The notes below the pieces were generated by a model, which had not been told where the DNA came from, ran no database searches, and saw nothing but the letters and a program-made list of their open reading frames with translations. Below, piece by piece: positions 30,659 to 46,943 of a DNA stretch of 61,787 nucleotides. Source of the DNA: Bacilli bacterium (GTDB lineage: Bacteria; Bacillota_I; Bacilli_A; RFN20; CAG-826); contig JAKSVG010000005.1 in NCBI GenBank assembly GCA_024408105.1, positions 1-61,787 of the forward strand, written 5' to 3'. Positions within the stretch are counted from its first letter, which is position 1. Each line of letters starts with the position of its first letter. Both the position numbers and the translations under genes were made by a program.

Positions 30659-31540
30659 ATGAAAACAAAAGTTCTTATTATTGGAGGTGGACCAATTGGT
30701 CTATATTTTGCTTCGAGATGCAATGACTATCTATTAATTGAATCAAATAACTTTTTAGGTGGTCAATTGATAAGTTTGTATCCAGAAAAAGAAATAGTAG
30801 ACATTCCAGGTATTAAATCAATTAAAGCGAAAGATTATATCAAACTTCTAACCAATAAAATTGATATGAATAAAGTTCATTTAAATGAACAGGTTATTAA
30901 TATTATTAATAATGGCGAGATAAAAATTATAACAAATAAGAACGAATATACTGCAGAAAATGTAATCATTGCAACAGGATTAGGATTTTCCTCACCTAGG
31001 CCTTTAGGAATTGATGGGGAGCAAGGATGTGACAACATTCTTTATCATTTAAGTGACTTCTCATTTTTAAAAGGGAAAAAGGTTGCTATTTTTGGTGGAG
31101 GAGACTCTGCTTTAGATTGGGCAAAATCAATTTCAAAAATCTCTAATCATGTTTCACTTATTCATAGACGATTAGAATTTAGAGGAAATCCTGAAACAAT
31201 TAAAGATTGCAATAATCTACATTTATATCTTCCATATATTCCCTACTCCTTGGAAAAAAGCGGGAATACGTGTAAAAGGATTAAAATCAAATTAGTGAGT
31301 GAAACGAAAGAAGAGTACGTCACACTAGATGTTGACTATATTCTTGTTAATTATGGGAATATAGCAAAAATCCCTGATTTTAATTTTGAAAAAGATGGTT
31401 CATTTTTTAAAGTAAATTCAAACTATGAGGTTGCGTCACATATTTTTGCGATAGGCGATACATGCTCATATGTCGATAAAAAAAGGCGCATAGCGCCAGG
31501 AATAGATGAAGCTAATAAAGTGCTTAAGTTAATTAGTTAA
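30659..31540 (+). CDS. Ferredoxin/flavodoxin-NADP+ reductase-like flavoenzyme, 293 aa
   Basis: Two Rossmann folds: FAD site VLIIGGGPIGLYFASRC at the N-terminus and NADPH site VAIFGGGDSALDWAKS, followed by LIHRRLEFRGN (2'-phosphate-binding arginines kept). The C-terminal FAD loop is FAIGDTCSY. There is no CxxC redox pair, so it is not a thioredoxin reductase but resembles the YumC/FNR type-2 group, at about 40 residues shorter than usual. It may be the cell's NADPH-ferredoxin link, relevant to the unusual TrxB at 40.4 kb. Convergent with the DUF402 gene (8-base overlap of ends). Confidence 0.8.
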   Translation: MKTKVLIIGGGPIGLYFASRCNDYLLIESNNFLGGQLISLYPEKEIVDIPGIKSIKAKDYIKLLTNKIDMNKVHLNEQVINIINNGEIKIITNKNEYTAENVIIATGLGFSSPRPLGIDGEQGCDNILYHLSDFSFLKGKKVAIFGGGDSALDWAKSISKISNHVSLIHRRLEFRGNPETIKDCNNLHLYLPYIPYSLEKSGNTCKRIKIKLVSETKEEYVTLDVDYILVNYGNIAKIPDFNFEKDGSFFKVNSNYEVASHIFAIGDTCSYVDKKRRIAPGIDEANKVLKLIS

Positions 31541-39702: not shown

Positions 39703-40386
39703 ATGGATTTTGTGGGTCTAGACAAATTTTCACTTCTTGACTATGACGAAATGGTCTCGGTGGTTCTTTTTGCACCTAATTGTAACTTTAGATGCCCTTT
39801 TTGCCATAATATTGAAACTGTTGTTGACGCAAAGGAAAGAATACCTTTTGAAGAAATAATTGATTATCTTAAATCTCGTTCTAATTTAATTGACGCTGTT
39901 GTCATATCTGGAGGCGAACCTACATTAATGAATGATCTAAAAGATAAGATAATAAAAATTAGAGAATTGGGATACAAAATAAAATTAGATACAAATGGTT
40001 CGAATCCTTTATTACTTAAAGATTTGATAGAATCTAAACTCGTTGATTATGTAGCGATGGATATTAAAAATTCATTGAGCAAATACGATATTACATCTGG
40101 GGTAAAGGGTAATTTTAATTTAGTTAAAGAATCAGTTGAAATTCTTAAAAATAATAAAGTTGATTATGAGTTTAGAACAACTTTAGTAGAAGAATTCCAC
40201 AACGATGAATCTATAAAAGAAATGGCAAAGATGCTTAAAGGTGCAAAGAAATTATTTTTGCAAAAATATGTTTATCGTGAGGGAGTCATAAATAAAAGCC
40301 TTCACCCAGTTGATGAGGCAAAGGCTAATTCATTTAAAAAGATTCTTTTATCTTCGATTGACGCTGTTGAACTACGTGGTTATTAA
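39703..40386 (+). CDS. nrdG: Anaerobic ribonucleotide reductase activating enzyme (radical SAM), 227 aa
   Basis: Makes the glycyl radical on NrdD using S-adenosylmethionine. The [4Fe-4S] motif is CNFRCPFCHN (CxxxCxxC, about residues 25-34), then VVISGGEPTLM (SAM-binding GGE) and LDTNGSNP. Length and sequence style fit the longer NrdG2-like activators (about 190-230 aa) better than classic NrdG (about 155 aa). It lies next to, but on the opposite strand from, trxB-nrdD; its stop overlaps the trxB stop by 3 bases. Probably leaderless. Confidence 0.88.
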   Translation: MDFVGLDKFSLLDYDEMVSVVLFAPNCNFRCPFCHNIETVVDAKERIPFEEIIDYLKSRSNLIDAVVISGGEPTLMNDLKDKIIKIRELGYKIKLDTNGSNPLLLKDLIESKLVDYVAMDIKNSLSKYDITSGVKGNFNLVKESVEILKNNKVDYEFRTTLVEEFHNDESIKEMAKMLKGAKKLFLQKYVYREGVINKSLHPVDEAKANSFKKILLSSIDAVELRGY

Positions 40387-41288
40387 GAAAGATATTTAAT
40401 TATAGATAAGGCGGCAATCGCTCCATCATTACAAGCTGTAACGAGTTGGCGAACGCCTTTTTTTCTTGTGTCGCCAACAGCGTATAATCCTGGCGTTTTT
40501 GTTTCCATGTCTTCATTTGTAATTACATATCCCTTGTCTAAGACAAGAAGATCAGCAAATCTATCATTTTGAGGTATTTGCCCTATACAAATAAAGACAT
40601 TGTCGGTTTGATATTCTCTTTTATTTTTGTCAATTGTATTTTCAAATACTAGACCAGTTAATTTATCTTCGCCTTTGTATTCCAATAAATTCATATTATG
40701 TGTTACAAAAATCTTAGAATTTGCTTTTACTTTATCTATTAGAATTTGATCGCCGAAGAAATGGTCAAATAATGTAAACATATGAACTTTTGTGCAATAG
40801 TCGGTAAGAAGAATTGCATACTGCATAGCAGTGTTTGCATCGCCAATTAAATATGCTTCTTTTCCTTTTAGCATTGGCCCATCACAAACTGCACAAAAAG
40901 AAATTCCGTTGCCTATAAAATCATCTTCCCTAGGAAGATTCATTAATCGGTGTTTAACACCGTTAGCAAGAACAACCGTCTTTGATTGATACTCATTATA
41001 GTTGGTTGTAACAAGAAATATACCGTTTTCATCTTTTTTGATAGATTCAACATCTTCTAATTCAAAAGATGCACCTAAATCAACGATTTGTTGAAACAAA
41101 TGATCAGAAAAATCTAACCCAGAAATTTCTTTAATGGAAGGGAAATTTTCCACCTTAGGTGAATTAGCAATTTGACCACCAAAGTTTTCTTTTTCTAAAA
41201 CAAGAACACTTTTATTATTTCTAAGAAGGTACAAGGCAGCGCTCATACCTGAAGCGCCACCGCCAACTATAATTGAATCATAAATCAT
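40383..41288 (-). CDS. trxB: Thioredoxin reductase-like protein lacking NADPH motifs, 301 aa
   Basis: The FAD fold is intact: SIIVGGGASGMSAALYLL, GGQIANSPKVENFP, and the C-terminal AVGDTRKKGVRQLVTACNDGAIAA. The redox pair is CAVCDG (Cys132 and Cys135). The second Rossmann motif, normally GGGxSA, reads LIGDANTAMQ (147-156), and the 2'-phosphate motif HRRxxFRA reads TLFDHFFGD (172-180). Both NADPH-binding signatures are therefore lost. Ferredoxin-dependent flavin thioredoxin reductases of clostridia show the same kind of loss. Its start is 1 base after the nrdD stop, so it should serve the redoxin domain fused to NrdD. Confidence 0.85.
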   Translation of the reverse strand: MIYDSIIVGGGASGMSAALYLLRNNKSVLVLEKENFGGQIANSPKVENFPSIKEISGLDFSDHLFQQIVDLGASFELEDVESIKKDENGIFLVTTNYNEYQSKTVVLANGVKHRLMNLPREDDFIGNGISFCAVCDGPMLKGKEAYLIGDANTAMQYAILLTDYCTKVHMFTLFDHFFGDQILIDKVKANSKIFVTHNMNLLEYKGEDKLTGLVFENTIDKNKREYQTDNVFICIGQIPQNDRFADLLVLDKGYVITNEDMETKTPGLYAVGDTRKKGVRQLVTACNDGAIAALSIIKYLS

Positions 41289-41289
41289 A

Positions 41290-43662
41290 TTAATTTAAAC
41301 TTTCGATATATCCCTTGATATTAGATGCATTCTCAAATAATTTAATGCCTTCATTAGAAGGAACTACCAACGTAGGGGCCTTTTTAATGTTGTATTTTTT
41401 AGTCATTTCAATTTGATCTTCTGCATCAACAAATGTGTATTTAATTCCTGCTTTTTCCAAAAGCATTTTTGCCATCTTACAATTTGGGCATGTTTTGGTT
41501 CCAAAGAGTAAAACTTCGTTTAATGACTCATCAGAATTTTCTTTTTCTAAACATGTGCATTCTTGTGAATGAACTTCATGTGTTAGATGAGAATTTTTAA
41601 TGTCGTACTCTTTACGATTGTTATATTCTTCAGTTTTGCCATCGTTCCAGTTTTGAATTGGACGGTAATAACCAGTAATACGACTATATACTTCTGTTTT
41701 TGAACCACATTTTGGACAAACAAATTGTTCACCATCAAGATAACCATGCTCTTTACATACGGAATAAGTAGGTGACATTGTATAGTATGGAATATGATAA
41801 TTCTCAGCAATCTTTCTAACTAGATTCATACATGATTTGTATGATGGAAGTTTTTGGCCTAAGAAAGCATGGAAAACAGTACCTGATGTATAAAGAGTTT
41901 GCAATCCATCTTGGATATCAAGTGCTTTAAAGATATCATCAGTAAAGCTAACTGGAAGATGAGATGAATTTGTGTAATATGGCGTATGTCCTTGCTCACT
42001 TGCTGTAATAATATCTGGATATTTAGCCTTATCGTGTTTTGCTAAACGATATGATGTTGATTCGGCAGGTGTAGCTTCAAGGTTATATAAATCGCCATAA
42101 AGTTCTTGGTAATCTGATAATCTTTCACGCATATGATTCAAGACAGCTTTTGTAAATTCAATAGCTTCTGGATTTGTTAAATCTTTTTTAATCCAGCGAG
42201 CATTTAAGCATGCTTCATTCATACCAACTAATCCAATCGTGGAGAAGTGATTATTAAATGTTCCTAAATAACGTTTTGTATATGGATATAATCCTGCTTC
42301 AAGCAAAGCAGTAATTGTATTTCTTTTAACTTTTAATGAGCGGGCAGATATATCCATGATTTTATCAAGTCTAGAATAGAAATCAGCTTCATCGGTTGCT
42401 AAATATGCGATACGTGGCATGTTAATAGTAACAACACCAACAGAGCCTGTAGATTCACCAGAGCCAAAGAAACCACCCGATTTCTTTCTTAATTCACGTA
42501 AGTCAAGACGAAGTCTGCAACACATACTTCTAACATCACTTGGCTCCATATCTGAGTTAATATAGTTTGAGAAATATGGAGTTCCATATTTAGCTGTCAT
42601 TGTGAACAACAATTTATTATTTTCAGATTCAGACCAATCAAATGTTTTGGTGATTGAATAGGTTGGAATAGGATATTGGAATCCGCGTCCATTTGCGTCA
42701 CCTTCAATCATAACCTCAATAAAGGCTTTATTAACCATAGCCATTTCTTTAGTACAATCCTTGTACTTAAAGTTCATTTCTTTTCCACCAACAATACAAT
42801 TGAGCTCAGCCATATCATTAGGTACGGTCCAATCTAATGTGATGTTTGTAAATGGAGCTTGTGTTCCCCATCTTGATGGAGTGTTAACACCATAGATAAA
42901 TGATTGAATGCATTGTTTAACTTCTTTATAAGTGAGATTATCAACTCTAACAAATGGAGCAAGATATGTATCAAAAGATGAAAATGCCTGTGCACCAGCC
43001 CATTCATTTTGCATAATGCCAAGAAAGTTCACCATTTGATTGCACAAAGTTGAAAGGTGGTTTGCTGGTGATGATGTTATCTTTCCGGGAACACCACCCA
43101 ACCCTTCTTGAATGAGTTGCTTTAATGACCAACCAGCACAATAGCCTGTAAGCATTGATAAATCATGAATATGAATATCAGCATTTCTATGAGCGTTTGA
43201 AATTTCTTGATCATAGATTTCGCTTAACCAATAGTTAGCAGTAACTGCACCACTATTAGAAAGGATTAAACCACCAACAGAGTATGTAACAGTTGAATTT
43301 TCTTTAACTCTCCAGTCATTTATTTTCAAATAATTATCAATAACATTTTTATAGTCAATATTTGTTTCCTTAAGTTGTCGTAGATTTTCGTGTTGTTTAC
43401 GATAAATCATATAACTACGAGCAACATCAATGTATCCTGCTTGAATTAAAACAACTTCAACAGCATCTTGGATATCTTCAATTTCAATTGAATCTTGCTT
43501 AATTTTGCTGTTAAATTCAGCAGTAGTTCTTAAAGCAAGCATTTGTATAATGTCAGTATTATAAAATTTGTGTTCCGCCATAAAGGCTCTTTCAATTGCA
43601 CTTTCAATTTTTGCAATATTGAATTCTTCAAGGGAACCATCACGTTTTTTTACTGTTAGCAT
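41290..43662 (-). CDS. nrdD: Anaerobic ribonucleoside-triphosphate reductase with fused glutaredoxin domain, 790 aa
   Basis: Class III RNR. Order: ATP-cone (1-90, VKKRDGSLEEFNIAKIESAI); the ten-stranded barrel with DIHIHDLSMLTGYCAGWSL, NITLDWTVP, SMCCRLRLDLRELRKKSGGFFGSGESTGSVGVV; a zinc site (VCKEHGYL then VCPKCG); and the glycyl radical motif SRITGYYRP. Beyond the usual end (about 700) lies a complete redoxin domain, EVLLFGTKTCPNCKMAK with CPNC, a VDAEDQIEM strand and APTLVVPSNEG with the cis-Pro. AGGAG lies 7 bases before the ATG. Confidence 0.95.
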   Translation of the reverse strand: MLTVKKRDGSLEEFNIAKIESAIERAFMAEHKFYNTDIIQMLALRTTAEFNSKIKQDSIEIEDIQDAVEVVLIQAGYIDVARSYMIYRKQHENLRQLKETNIDYKNVIDNYLKINDWRVKENSTVTYSVGGLILSNSGAVTANYWLSEIYDQEISNAHRNADIHIHDLSMLTGYCAGWSLKQLIQEGLGGVPGKITSSPANHLSTLCNQMVNFLGIMQNEWAGAQAFSSFDTYLAPFVRVDNLTYKEVKQCIQSFIYGVNTPSRWGTQAPFTNITLDWTVPNDMAELNCIVGGKEMNFKYKDCTKEMAMVNKAFIEVMIEGDANGRGFQYPIPTYSITKTFDWSESENNKLLFTMTAKYGTPYFSNYINSDMEPSDVRSMCCRLRLDLRELRKKSGGFFGSGESTGSVGVVTINMPRIAYLATDEADFYSRLDKIMDISARSLKVKRNTITALLEAGLYPYTKRYLGTFNNHFSTIGLVGMNEACLNARWIKKDLTNPEAIEFTKAVLNHMRERLSDYQELYGDLYNLEATPAESTSYRLAKHDKAKYPDIITASEQGHTPYYTNSSHLPVSFTDDIFKALDIQDGLQTLYTSGTVFHAFLGQKLPSYKSCMNLVRKIAENYHIPYYTMSPTYSVCKEHGYLDGEQFVCPKCGSKTEVYSRITGYYRPIQNWNDGKTEEYNNRKEYDIKNSHLTHEVHSQECTCLEKENSDESLNEVLLFGTKTCPNCKMAKMLLEKAGIKYTFVDAEDQIEMTKKYNIKKAPTLVVPSNEGIKLFENASNIKGYIESLN

Positions 43663-43933: not shown

Positions 43934-44659
43934 TTATTGCTTTCTTTGAATATAAATAATTTTTGCGTTAAAAATTTGACGATCTTTTGTCTTTCCTGAA
44001 ACATATTCAACGTCATTTTGAATATTGTTTGAAAGAATAAGTTCTTCGCCACTTAATAATTCATGTTCATAATTAATGTCAAAATGTTTAATTTGTTTAT
44101 CCTTAAAAAAGGCAAAATCATGGCAATCAATGACATAATTAATATAACTTGTGTTATTAATATGACCATTTAAATCAGTATCAGAATATGTTGAGACACG
44201 CTTATTGCACTCAAATAGTTCTATTGGGGGATTAATTTTTTGAGGAAGCTTTTCTTCATCATCTATATGTTCATGAGGAAGCACATCTCCTCCAAATGGA
44301 TTCATATTTATATTGTGGTTATCCATGTTTAGAACAACCCATGTCGAGCTTGCTTTAATAACAATTTCGCCAGAGAGTGTTTCAATTTGAAAAAATCTTG
44401 GAAAAATAAATTTCATATCTTTTCCTGGATATGTTTTCACTACAAGAGTTTCCAAGAATTTGGGCATTCTAATAATATCGACAGAATATCTTGTAATAAC
44501 CCAAAACATTCCTTTATCTATAGTCTTTTCTCTTCCAATGCCAAGTTTTTCGGCGTGCTCTGTGGCAATGTCTTGCATAAACTTGAACAAACTTGAAAGA
44601 CGTAAATCCAAAAATGGATCTACGTCACTTGGTCCTACAAAATATTGCTTTTCAAGCAT
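43934..44659 (-). CDS. Acyl-ACP thioesterase (FatA/FatB type), 241 aa
   Basis: Hydrolyses acyl-ACP to release fatty acids. Two hot-dog domains: the first begins EKQYFVGPSDVDPFLDLRLSSLFKFMQDIATEHAEKLGIG, with MFWVITRYSVDIIRMP and SSTWVVLNMD; the second begins STYSDTDLNGHINNTSYINYV, which holds the Asn and His of the catalytic set. Length matches bacterial members (about 240-250). It overlaps the BspA-like gene by 8 bases and is last in the seven-gene oppA-led run, so it is translationally coupled to a surface protein gene. Confidence 0.9.
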   Translation of the reverse strand: MLEKQYFVGPSDVDPFLDLRLSSLFKFMQDIATEHAEKLGIGREKTIDKGMFWVITRYSVDIIRMPKFLETLVVKTYPGKDMKFIFPRFFQIETLSGEIVIKASSTWVVLNMDNHNINMNPFGGDVLPHEHIDDEEKLPQKINPPIELFECNKRVSTYSDTDLNGHINNTSYINYVIDCHDFAFFKDKQIKHFDINYEHELLSGEELILSNNIQNDVEYVSGKTKDRQIFNAKIIYIQRKQ

Positions 44660-46943
44660 TAACTATTGCCTCGATAATTGATGAATAGTCCGACCATTCG
44701 GAATTAGTTTTATAAGATTCAACTAAATCGCTTGGAACATAAATGTGTTCAATGTTTGAACCCTCGAATGCGCCGGGATATAAAGAAACAACACTAGGGC
44801 TTTCAAGGGTGATTGAAGAAAGTTTACTATCAACAAATGCACCAACCTCAATAAATTTAATATTGCTTGGTAGCACAATCGATGTAATTCCACTATGAGC
44901 AAACATAAGTGATTTAATAGATGTTAAAATCGGATTAGAACTTATGGTCACACTTGTCAATGACTCACATTCAAAGAAAATGTTTGCTGCTAAAGCATCG
45001 CAAGTGTTAGGAATAACAAATGAAGCAAGTTTAACGCAACCGCTAAATGCTCCCATTCCTATATTTGTTAATGATGGATTAGCGCCAAGATTTACATTTA
45101 CAAGTTTAGTACAATAAGCAAAGGCTTCTTGACCTATTGTTTTATAATTTTCAGGAACGTTAATTTCTTCGAGTGATTCGCAACCATAAAAACAATTTGT
45201 TGTTATAGCGTCACAAGAAGTTGGCAATGTAACATTCTTAAGTGAAACACAACCTTGGAAAACATTTGTCTCAATTGTTTTAACATCATTATCAATTACA
45301 ATTGATTCTAGACTAACGCAATCTTTAAAAGCGGAACGATTTATAACTGTGACATCTGATGATCCGTTTGTTCCAAAATCGACAACTTTAAGGTACTCTG
45401 CGCCTTCGCAAAGAGATGGCGGTAAGGTTGTAATATTTCTTCCTTTAACAATTTCAAGGTATGAAAGGTCAGTAATTGCACTGTAATCTTTTGCAAGTCT
45501 AAGTGTTTTAACATTTGTTCCGCTAAAGAAGAACGAATCACTATTCGTACCACCCAAACTTGATAATGTAACTGGAACATTCACTTCATCTCTAGGAGTA
45601 AGTTCGTTGCCTAATTCGTCAACAAGAACAAGTCCTTCAAACAATGGGGAGTTATTAAACATACCAGATTCAAATTTCAAAATTCCTTGGTATGATACAT
45701 CACTAGCAGTCCAGACATATTCGCCTTTTTCTTCATCAAGTACACGAACAATTTCAGGTGTACCTAAAACATTATTATAGGCGGTAATATACTTAAGTTC
45801 TGAACATTCTGCAAAGGCATTTTTCTTAACAGAATTTACATTAAATGGAACATCAAATGATGTAAGAGCTGTGCCTTTAAATGCATTTTCTCCAATATAA
45901 GAAATTGTAGATAAAATAGATAAATCCTCATCAGAGAAATCAACTTCAGCGAGTTTTGAGCAATCTTCAAACAATGAATCAGAAATACTTTCAAATCCAT
46001 ATGGGATATTAACTTTTGTAATTTCATTACAACCTTTGAATGCTCCATAACCTAAATATTCAAGATTTTTATTTAAGTGAATTTCACCTGTCAATTTCGA
46101 ATAACTAAATGCAGAACTTCCAATGTATGTGACAGATTCAGGAATGTTAATTTTAGATAAAGAAGAACAATAAGAAAACGCTAAATCGTTAATTGTTGTT
46201 AATTTATCATGTAGAACAACTTCCTCTAAAGCATCACATCCATCAAATGTTGATTCATAGATTGTTGTGAAATGTTCAGGAATTTCTGCATAGACAAGAG
46301 ATGTTTGATCTTTGAAAACGCCAGAAGACATATTCTTGTATGCTCCTAGATTAACAACAGTGCCGCTCGCATGAGCGTATGGAGAGTTTTCGTTTTTAAC
46401 TATATAAGCAGGATAATCCATTTTGCCTTTATAGACATAAAGCATATCTCCAATTGTAACTTCACCATCTTCTTGATCGGCCAACCATTTTGTGTTGGAG
46501 AATGCATCAGTCCCAATAGAAGCAAGATTCTTTGGAACATTGAATTTTTCAAGATTTTCGCAATAACTAAAACAATTGTTACCAATTATTTTAAGTGAAT
46601 CTGGAAAAATAACTTCTTTAATATCTTCATTTGTTGCAAAAACTTCAGGAGCTATTTCCACAACTGGGCGTCCGCCTAATTGATTTGGAATTCTAAATTT
46701 AGAAGGAAGAGTAGCTTCTTCTTTGATTGCGTCAATTCTTACTCCACTTCCATCAACATCATAACGGTAAGAATAAGTAAATAATCCTACATTTTCATAC
46801 TCAATAAATACTTTTGAAATAACAAAATAATAAGTTAATGAAATTGCAGCAACTAATGCAGCGCAAACACTAGAGATAATAATAATTTTGTTTCTTTTAG
46901 CGTGAGGCTTAACTTCTTTTGGTTTTGGTTCAATATATTCCAT
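44652..46943 (-). CDS. BspA-like leucine-rich repeat membrane protein, 763 aa
   Basis: A short cytoplasmic lysine-rich head (1-18) precedes one transmembrane helix (about 19-41, IIIISSVCAALVAAISLTYYF), giving an outside-facing protein without signal cleavage. The rest is about 20 LRR_5 repeats of roughly 23 residues with the pattern 'aFxgCxxLxxvxiPxxvxxIg': GNNCFSYCENLEKFNVP, SDSLFEDCSKLAEVDF, NRSAFKDCVSLESIVI and similar. BspA relatives bind host or matrix proteins. GGAGG lies 7 bases before the ATG, right after oppF. Co-transcription with peptide uptake genes is unusual. Confidence 0.88.
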   Translation of the reverse strand: MEYIEPKPKEVKPHAKRNKIIIISSVCAALVAAISLTYYFVISKVFIEYENVGLFTYSYRYDVDGSGVRIDAIKEEATLPSKFRIPNQLGGRPVVEIAPEVFATNEDIKEVIFPDSLKIIGNNCFSYCENLEKFNVPKNLASIGTDAFSNTKWLADQEDGEVTIGDMLYVYKGKMDYPAYIVKNENSPYAHASGTVVNLGAYKNMSSGVFKDQTSLVYAEIPEHFTTIYESTFDGCDALEEVVLHDKLTTINDLAFSYCSSLSKINIPESVTYIGSSAFSYSKLTGEIHLNKNLEYLGYGAFKGCNEITKVNIPYGFESISDSLFEDCSKLAEVDFSDEDLSILSTISYIGENAFKGTALTSFDVPFNVNSVKKNAFAECSELKYITAYNNVLGTPEIVRVLDEEKGEYVWTASDVSYQGILKFESGMFNNSPLFEGLVLVDELGNELTPRDEVNVPVTLSSLGGTNSDSFFFSGTNVKTLRLAKDYSAITDLSYLEIVKGRNITTLPPSLCEGAEYLKVVDFGTNGSSDVTVINRSAFKDCVSLESIVIDNDVKTIETNVFQGCVSLKNVTLPTSCDAITTNCFYGCESLEEINVPENYKTIGQEAFAYCTKLVNVNLGANPSLTNIGMGAFSGCVKLASFVIPNTCDALAANIFFECESLTSVTISSNPILTSIKSLMFAHSGITSIVLPSNIKFIEVGAFVDSKLSSITLESPSVVSLYPGAFEGSNIEHIYVPSDLVESYKTNSEWSDYSSIIEAIVNA

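Follow-up and report, generated by a model that had tools for sequence, protein, structure and literature searches.

A conserved replacement of the NADPH site in a thioredoxin reductase-like flavoprotein encoded beside a glutaredoxin-fused class III ribonucleotide reductase, and its possible supply by ferredoxin

The window analysed here is a 61,787-nucleotide stretch of DNA (contig JAKSVG010000005.1 of assembly GCA_024408105.1) from a Bacilli bacterium of the GTDB lineage Bacillota_I; Bacilli_A; RFN20; CAG-826. Its reverse strand carries a class III ribonucleotide reductase (RNR) gene with a fused glutaredoxin (Grx) domain and, after a gap of one base between the nrdD-Grx end (41290) and the trxB start (41288), a gene for a thioredoxin reductase (TrxB)-like flavoprotein (Table 1). 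We refer to nrdD-linked TrxB-like proteins with the signatures GDAN[TS]A and LFDxxF as type A, and to the second TrxB of the source genus as type B. The activase gene nrdG is followed in turn by folD. Upstream of nrdD and on the same strand, positions 44652-46943 encode a 763-aa protein with what appear by eye to be repeated leucine-rich (BspA-like) units. The nrdD-Grx/trxB operon has no ferredoxin gene linked to it.

Table 1. Features of the window discussed in the text
Feature	Position	Strand	Description
Type-A TrxB-like flavoprotein	40383..41288	-	301 aa; retains FAD domain and CxxC disulfide; GDANTA/TLFDHFF signature at the pseudo-NADPH site
Redox-active CAVC of type-A TrxB	40884..40895 (codons 132-135)	-	Computed from ORF start at 41288
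IGDANTA replacing (I/V)GGGxSA in type-A TrxB	40827..40847 (codons 148-154)	-	Computed from ORF start at 41288
TLFDHFF replacing HRRxxFR in type-A TrxB	40755..40775 (codons 172-178)	-	Computed from ORF start at 41288
nrdD-Grx	41290..43662	-	Class III RNR; ATP-cone, finger-loop motif SMCCRLRL and C-terminal Grx domain (residues ~717-767, CPNC)
nrdG (NrdG2-type radical SAM activase)	39703..40386	+	Convergent with trxB
TrxR-like ferredoxin-NADP+ reductase (FNR)	30659..31540	+	GGGDSA and HRRLEFR intact; candidate NADPH-to-ferredoxin transfer; 9 kb away, outside conserved module

A first, sequence-only reading of this DNA described the flavoprotein as a TrxB relative that keeps its FAD motifs and its CAVCDG pair and has lost both NADPH-binding motifs, and direct inspection of the ORF bears out both statements. 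The FAD motif GGGASG (residues 9-14), the GGQ motif (37-39), the disulfide motif C132-A-V-C135-D-G and the C-terminal VGDTRKK (271) are all intact. Where NADPH-dependent thioredoxin reductases (NTRs) carry the pyrophosphate-site motif GxGxxA, this protein has I148-G-D-A-N-T-A154, and the 2'-phosphate site HRRxxFR (HRRxxxR in the NTR definition) is T172-L-F-D-H-F-F178 (in TLFDHFFGD), with Leu, Phe and Phe in place of its three arginines. The NTR equivalog model TIGR01292 covers the whole length of the ORF, yet the score of 290.9 bits falls below the curated cut-off of 343.45. What is left is an NTR-like two-domain flavoprotein with a CxxC disulfide and neither GxGxxA nor HRRxxxR, a combination shared with the ferredoxin-dependent flavin thioredoxin reductases (FFTRs). 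Judged from its sequence, type A probably does not bind NAD(P)H.

The replacement is not a chance event: it is kept in more than 20 other genomes of the source genus and family, and a search of 59 relatives recovered orthologs at 45-84% identity that share it. Within 27 aligned family members G149, D150, N152, A154, Q156, L173 and F178 are invariant, as are C132, C135 and the glycines of the FAD motif. GDAN[TS]A and LFDxxF are nearly invariant across 44 divergent type-A representatives, with D150, N152 and F178 present in all 44 and F174 in 43. A scan of 84,980 species genomes, which favoured motif-bearing matches by using IGDAN as one of its two patterns, yielded 585 stretches encoding relatives; the best 80 of these carry the record labels Bacilli, Erysipelotrichaceae, Clostridia, Christensenella and Candidatus Borkfalkia. 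With relatives and scan pooled, the motif occurs in at least 111 rows, representing at least 91 distinct sequences from uncultured Bacilli and Clostridia. Because the four residues counted above are near-invariant whereas the HRR site varies among the motif-less type-B TrxBs of the source genus, the old NADPH site of type A is preserved in a new form and not decaying. Two members inside the type-A clade carry altered signatures (L141, IGNGNTALQ/TRKDRFSGD; L154, IGGGNSGMQ/VSGNKFSGE) and are possible reversions or cases of further change. In another genome (G047) a type-A trxB that adjoins nrdD (L259:2312-2572) runs into a stretch of Ns and is only partly readable.

The one-base spacing between nrdD-Grx and trxB was also part of the sequence-only reading, and the pairing proves to be conserved in relatives. 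Upstream DNA was available for 109 type-A rows, among which some genomes are represented more than once. All 109 have nrdD or its Grx domain upstream in the same orientation, and in 107 it is the immediate neighbour. Canonical TrxBs show the same linkage in 1 of 24 cases, and this sole case (L151) involves a weak Grx-like ORF. Of 126 NrdD ORFs, 119 have CPNC or CPKC in the fused Grx domain, and SMCCRLRL occurs in all 111 in which the finger loop was recognised. This motif holds an extra cysteine (MCCR instead of GCR), as in redoxin-dependent class III RNRs of the NrdD2/3-like kind, and probably corresponds to the third cysteine by which Wei et al. define the subtype. The related SCCR is found in T. 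maritima NrdD, which showed activity when supplied with a protein reductant but none with formate (PMC4493059). In genome G038, which lacks type A, nrdG-nrdD-Grx stands without an adjoining trxB. The strong linkage, together with the Grx fusion, points to the Grx domain as the likely acceptor of electrons from type A.

No class I or II RNR large subunit (PF02867) and no pyruvate formate-lyase was found in 24 genomes of the genus, and redoxin-driven NrdD therefore looks essential there. Pyruvate:ferredoxin oxidoreductase (PFOR) gives a strong match in 21 of these 24, of which 20 pass the cut-off and one is divided between two contigs; it was not found in the source genome, a metagenome-assembled genome (MAG) that is 73% complete. 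The source genome encodes a HydABC-type bifurcating [FeFe] hydrogenase, TrxA and a 56-aa acidic ferredoxin with a single [4Fe-4S] cluster (MPKVKVNPEACGSCGLCVG...), for which 15 of the 16 genus genomes searched have a match. A query of the C. pasteurianum type for a clostridial 2[4Fe-4S] ferredoxin mainly matched HydB in the genus, which leaves the small Fer4_13/Fer4_15 protein as the candidate. It had been suggested that the FNR-type enzyme at 30659 could charge the ferredoxin. Its intact NADPH motifs stand, and in the PDB it is matched best by ferredoxin-NADP reductases of the TrxR-like type, but homologs were seen in only some genus genomes, so that PFOR, with its wider distribution, would supply reduced ferredoxin more generally.

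The sequence-only reading went too far in calling the loss of NADPH motifs the hallmark of FFTRs, since the same loss is seen in DvTRi, the atypical TrxR of D. vulgaris (5nii; PMC5627308), as well as in MjTR, which depends on F420, and the T. acidophilum TR, which uses NADH (PMC6262447). Alignment with the clostridial FFTRs, which it had proposed, did not bring type A close to them: identity is 29% to the C. acetobutylicum FFTR (CaFFTR) as against 36% to B. cereus TrxB, and the shortened disulfide domain, a trait of the clostridial subgroup that does not define all FFTRs, is absent from type A. Alignment columns 176-184, which are gapped in the FFTRs 6gna, 6gnc and L163, are filled with conserved sequence in type A. 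In a quick tree of 116 TrxBs, computed after both motif regions had been cut out, type A is recovered as a separate clade (SH-aLRT 99) with two motif variants inside it and, together with an nrdD-linked set carrying GGGNSA/VQNL, joins clostridial NTRs with intact motifs (SH-aLRT 98). The FFTRs 6gna, 6gnc and L163 form a separate clade (SH-aLRT 100) on long branches in this tree, for which the CaFFTR sequence was taken from PDB alignments and from which GvFFTR (5j60) was omitted. DvTRi-like proteins form another clade (SH-aLRT 99), and type A falls outside it and lacks the TQ/NGK motif. Simple membership of type A among the FFTRs is not borne out by sequence ranking, tree or domain length, yet AU tests do not reject a single clade of type A and FFTRs (p 0.462 when the VQNL set is included and 0.445 when it is not). 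We consider that type A probably works as FFTRs do, with FFTR membership not established.

An AF2 monomer of type A (pLDDT 87.4, pTM 0.69) retains a full-length second domain, and the closest folds are canonical Gram-positive NTRs, led by that of B. cereus (7aaw; TM 0.92, Z 37). FFTRs do not appear among the best 50 matches, which has no bearing on relatedness. An open resting conformation resembling the flavin-reducing (FR) state is one of the traits of FFTRs. NTRs in the closed (FO) state match the model at a TM of about 0.9 and those in the FR state at about 0.67, although a monomer prediction is silent on the resting state of the enzyme.

Altogether these results lead us to propose that type A is a dedicated reductase of class III RNR that is fed by ferredoxin and reduces the Grx domain fused to NrdD, a reading to which we assign a probability of roughly 0.57. 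We envision a scenario in which ferredoxin, reduced by PFOR or in some strains by the TrxR-like FNR, would pass electrons singly to the FAD of type A; the flavin would reduce the CAVC disulfide, and the resulting dithiol would in turn reduce CPNC of the Grx domain, which would re-reduce the NrdD cysteines oxidised during dNTP formation. The former NADPH site would bind no NADPH, and GDANTA/LFDxxF would more likely serve a protein partner as a docking or gating surface. This is the best-supported chain. Its acceptor side rests on the gene linkage and the fusion, and ferredoxin is the presumed donor because the motifs exclude NADPH and metabolism in the genus is ferredoxin-based. Several observations weigh against the proposal: motif loss also fits TrxRs with other donors, type A stands apart from the FFTRs in the tree and keeps conserved sequence at the place of the clostridial deletion, its model resembles closed-form NTRs, the operon lacks a linked ferredoxin gene, and PFOR was not found in the 73%-complete source genome.

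The alternative that survives best keeps the role in reducing NrdD-Grx and assigns the donor step to another protein, such as flavodoxin, an NADH-dependent flavoprotein, a hydrogenase subunit or an unknown carrier. The conserved LFDxxF patch would fit protein docking of any kind, and DvTRi, with equivalent motif loss, is not reduced by NAD(P)H and has a donor still to be identified (PMC5627308). We nonetheless regard this alternative as unlikely, since no stand-alone flavodoxin was found in the source genome and 15 other genus genomes, whereas the small ferredoxin is present and PFOR is nearly universal in the genus. Less likely again is that type A uses NADH through its remodelled site, in the manner of the T. 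acidophilum TR, which lacks HRRxxxR and works with NADH (PMC6262447). The sister nrdD-linked set, in which only the HRR motif is lost, could represent such an NADH-using stage, but type A has substitutions in the pyrophosphate loop itself (second Gly to Asp in 44/44 representatives, Gly to Ala in 41/44), which would be expected to clash with and repel the pyrophosphate of a dinucleotide. Conservation of the pseudo-site as strong as that of the catalytic residues, against the drifted HRR site of type B, could also be read as the mark of a mainly regulatory or oxygen/thiol-sensing NrdD partner, or of a site that binds another nucleotide as a signal, but this is very improbable given CxxC and FAD motifs that are intact and nearly invariant, as expected of an active disulfide reductase, and a neighbouring dithiol Grx that is a natural type of substrate.

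Ferredoxin-driven reduction of NrdD-Grx by type A could be part of a wider arrangement. Both NADPH motifs are lost from the type-B TrxB throughout the genus (L040-L042, L046-L062; for example L178:3466-4368). None of the genus genomes examined showed a canonical HRR TrxB, which does occur in other genera of the family (L039, L043-L045). A second, canonical NADPH-type trxB, whose presence in the source genome had been raised as a check, was likewise not found in this 73%-complete MAG. As rapZ, a neighbour of the classical trxB, is missing from it too (in a search without a positive control), the classical trxB region may simply be absent from the assembly. The type-B gene lies in the order uvrA-lgt-HAD-trxB-rapZ-whiA beside PFOR. 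We take this to be the classical Firmicutes trxB neighbourhood, and some genomes with canonical TrxB also have PFOR nearby on the contig; we therefore do not count the proximity as functional evidence. In the 116-TrxB tree type-B proteins are interspersed with canonical TrxBs from their own order, and their motif loss appears to be independent of that in type A. These observations raise a bolder possibility, which we hold tentatively and think somewhat more likely to be wrong than right: that type A is a large family of TrxB-derived flavoenzymes, so far undescribed, that is hard-wired to NrdD-Grx and driven by ferredoxin through a conserved docking surface newly evolved where the NADPH site had been, and that with independent loss of NADPH use by its house-keeping trxB the genus runs its cytosolic thiol economy on ferredoxin, without an NADPH-thioredoxin reductase.

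Several other TrxBs have changed at the same sites. Six from other families of the order (L072, L075/L167/L168 and L077/L078) lack the NADPH motifs and carry other sequences in their place; in the tree they look like further independent losses, so that loss seems to have arisen several times among TrxBs. Ten others, nearly all nrdD-linked, keep GGGNSA and have VQNLxxLTGE or a similar sequence in place of HRRxxFR (L036, L037, L147-L150, L153, L155, L157, L158); they are perhaps an intermediate or NADH-using stage. A clostridial-type FFTR homolog (L163, in genome G028 of the same family; VIGYSKKEEDEA, CDAPLYK) and DvTRi-like reductases in uncultured Bacilli and Clostridia (L160, L161, L242, L243; top PDB match 5nii for the two compared, L160 and L243) were also found.

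If the proposal is correct, DNA precursor synthesis in many uncultured anaerobes, most of them associated with the gut, draws directly on low-potential electrons from ferredoxin and is uncoupled from NADPH. A low-potential electron is also required by the radical SAM activase NrdG, and one carrier could thus both activate NrdD, through NrdG, and re-reduce it. The type-A step appears essential in the genus, as NrdD is the only RNR detected. The repeated loss of NADPH sites in related TrxBs would provide a natural experiment in the conversion of a dinucleotide-dependent enzyme into a protein-fed one.

We have met no description of an nrdD-linked TrxB family lacking the NADPH site in the open-access literature, and type A differs from each known system. 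Canonical NTRs are its nearest relatives in sequence and fold, but type A lacks both their NADPH motifs and scores below the TIGR01292 cut-off. FFTRs, known from C. acetobutylicum (6gna/6gnc) and Gloeobacter, receive electrons from ferredoxin (PMC12796991) and share with type A the low-Mr TrxR fold, FAD, CxxC, the absence of GxGxxA and HRRxxxR, and an occurrence in ferredoxin-using organisms. They differ in clade and in the GDANTA/LFDxxF signature, which is type A's own; CaFFTR has SKKL and a deletion where type A keeps GGQ and a full-length disulfide domain; and the presumed partner of type A, for which ferredoxin use is a proposal, is a Grx fused to NrdD and not free Trx. DvTRi likewise comes from an anaerobe and has lost the NADPH motifs; unlike type A it has GEGxxAxN and TQGK and serves Trx1, and the DvTRi-like genes found here have no nrdD linkage. 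A fused Grx acts as RNR reductant in Facklamia NrdB-Grx, but that enzyme is class I and works with glutathione. A RefSeq survey of 2018 contained a single Grx-NrdD fusion (PMC6187632), whereas here nrdD-Grx genes adjoin type A in dozens of cases. The nearest functional precedent for the proposed chain comes from M. barkeri, in which a ferredoxin:disulfide reductase reportedly feeds the class III RNR (Wei et al. 2015, cited in PMC6262447). That reductase is an FTR-type Fe-S enzyme without relationship to TrxB, and the system presumably uses a separate redoxin and not an NrdD-Grx fusion.
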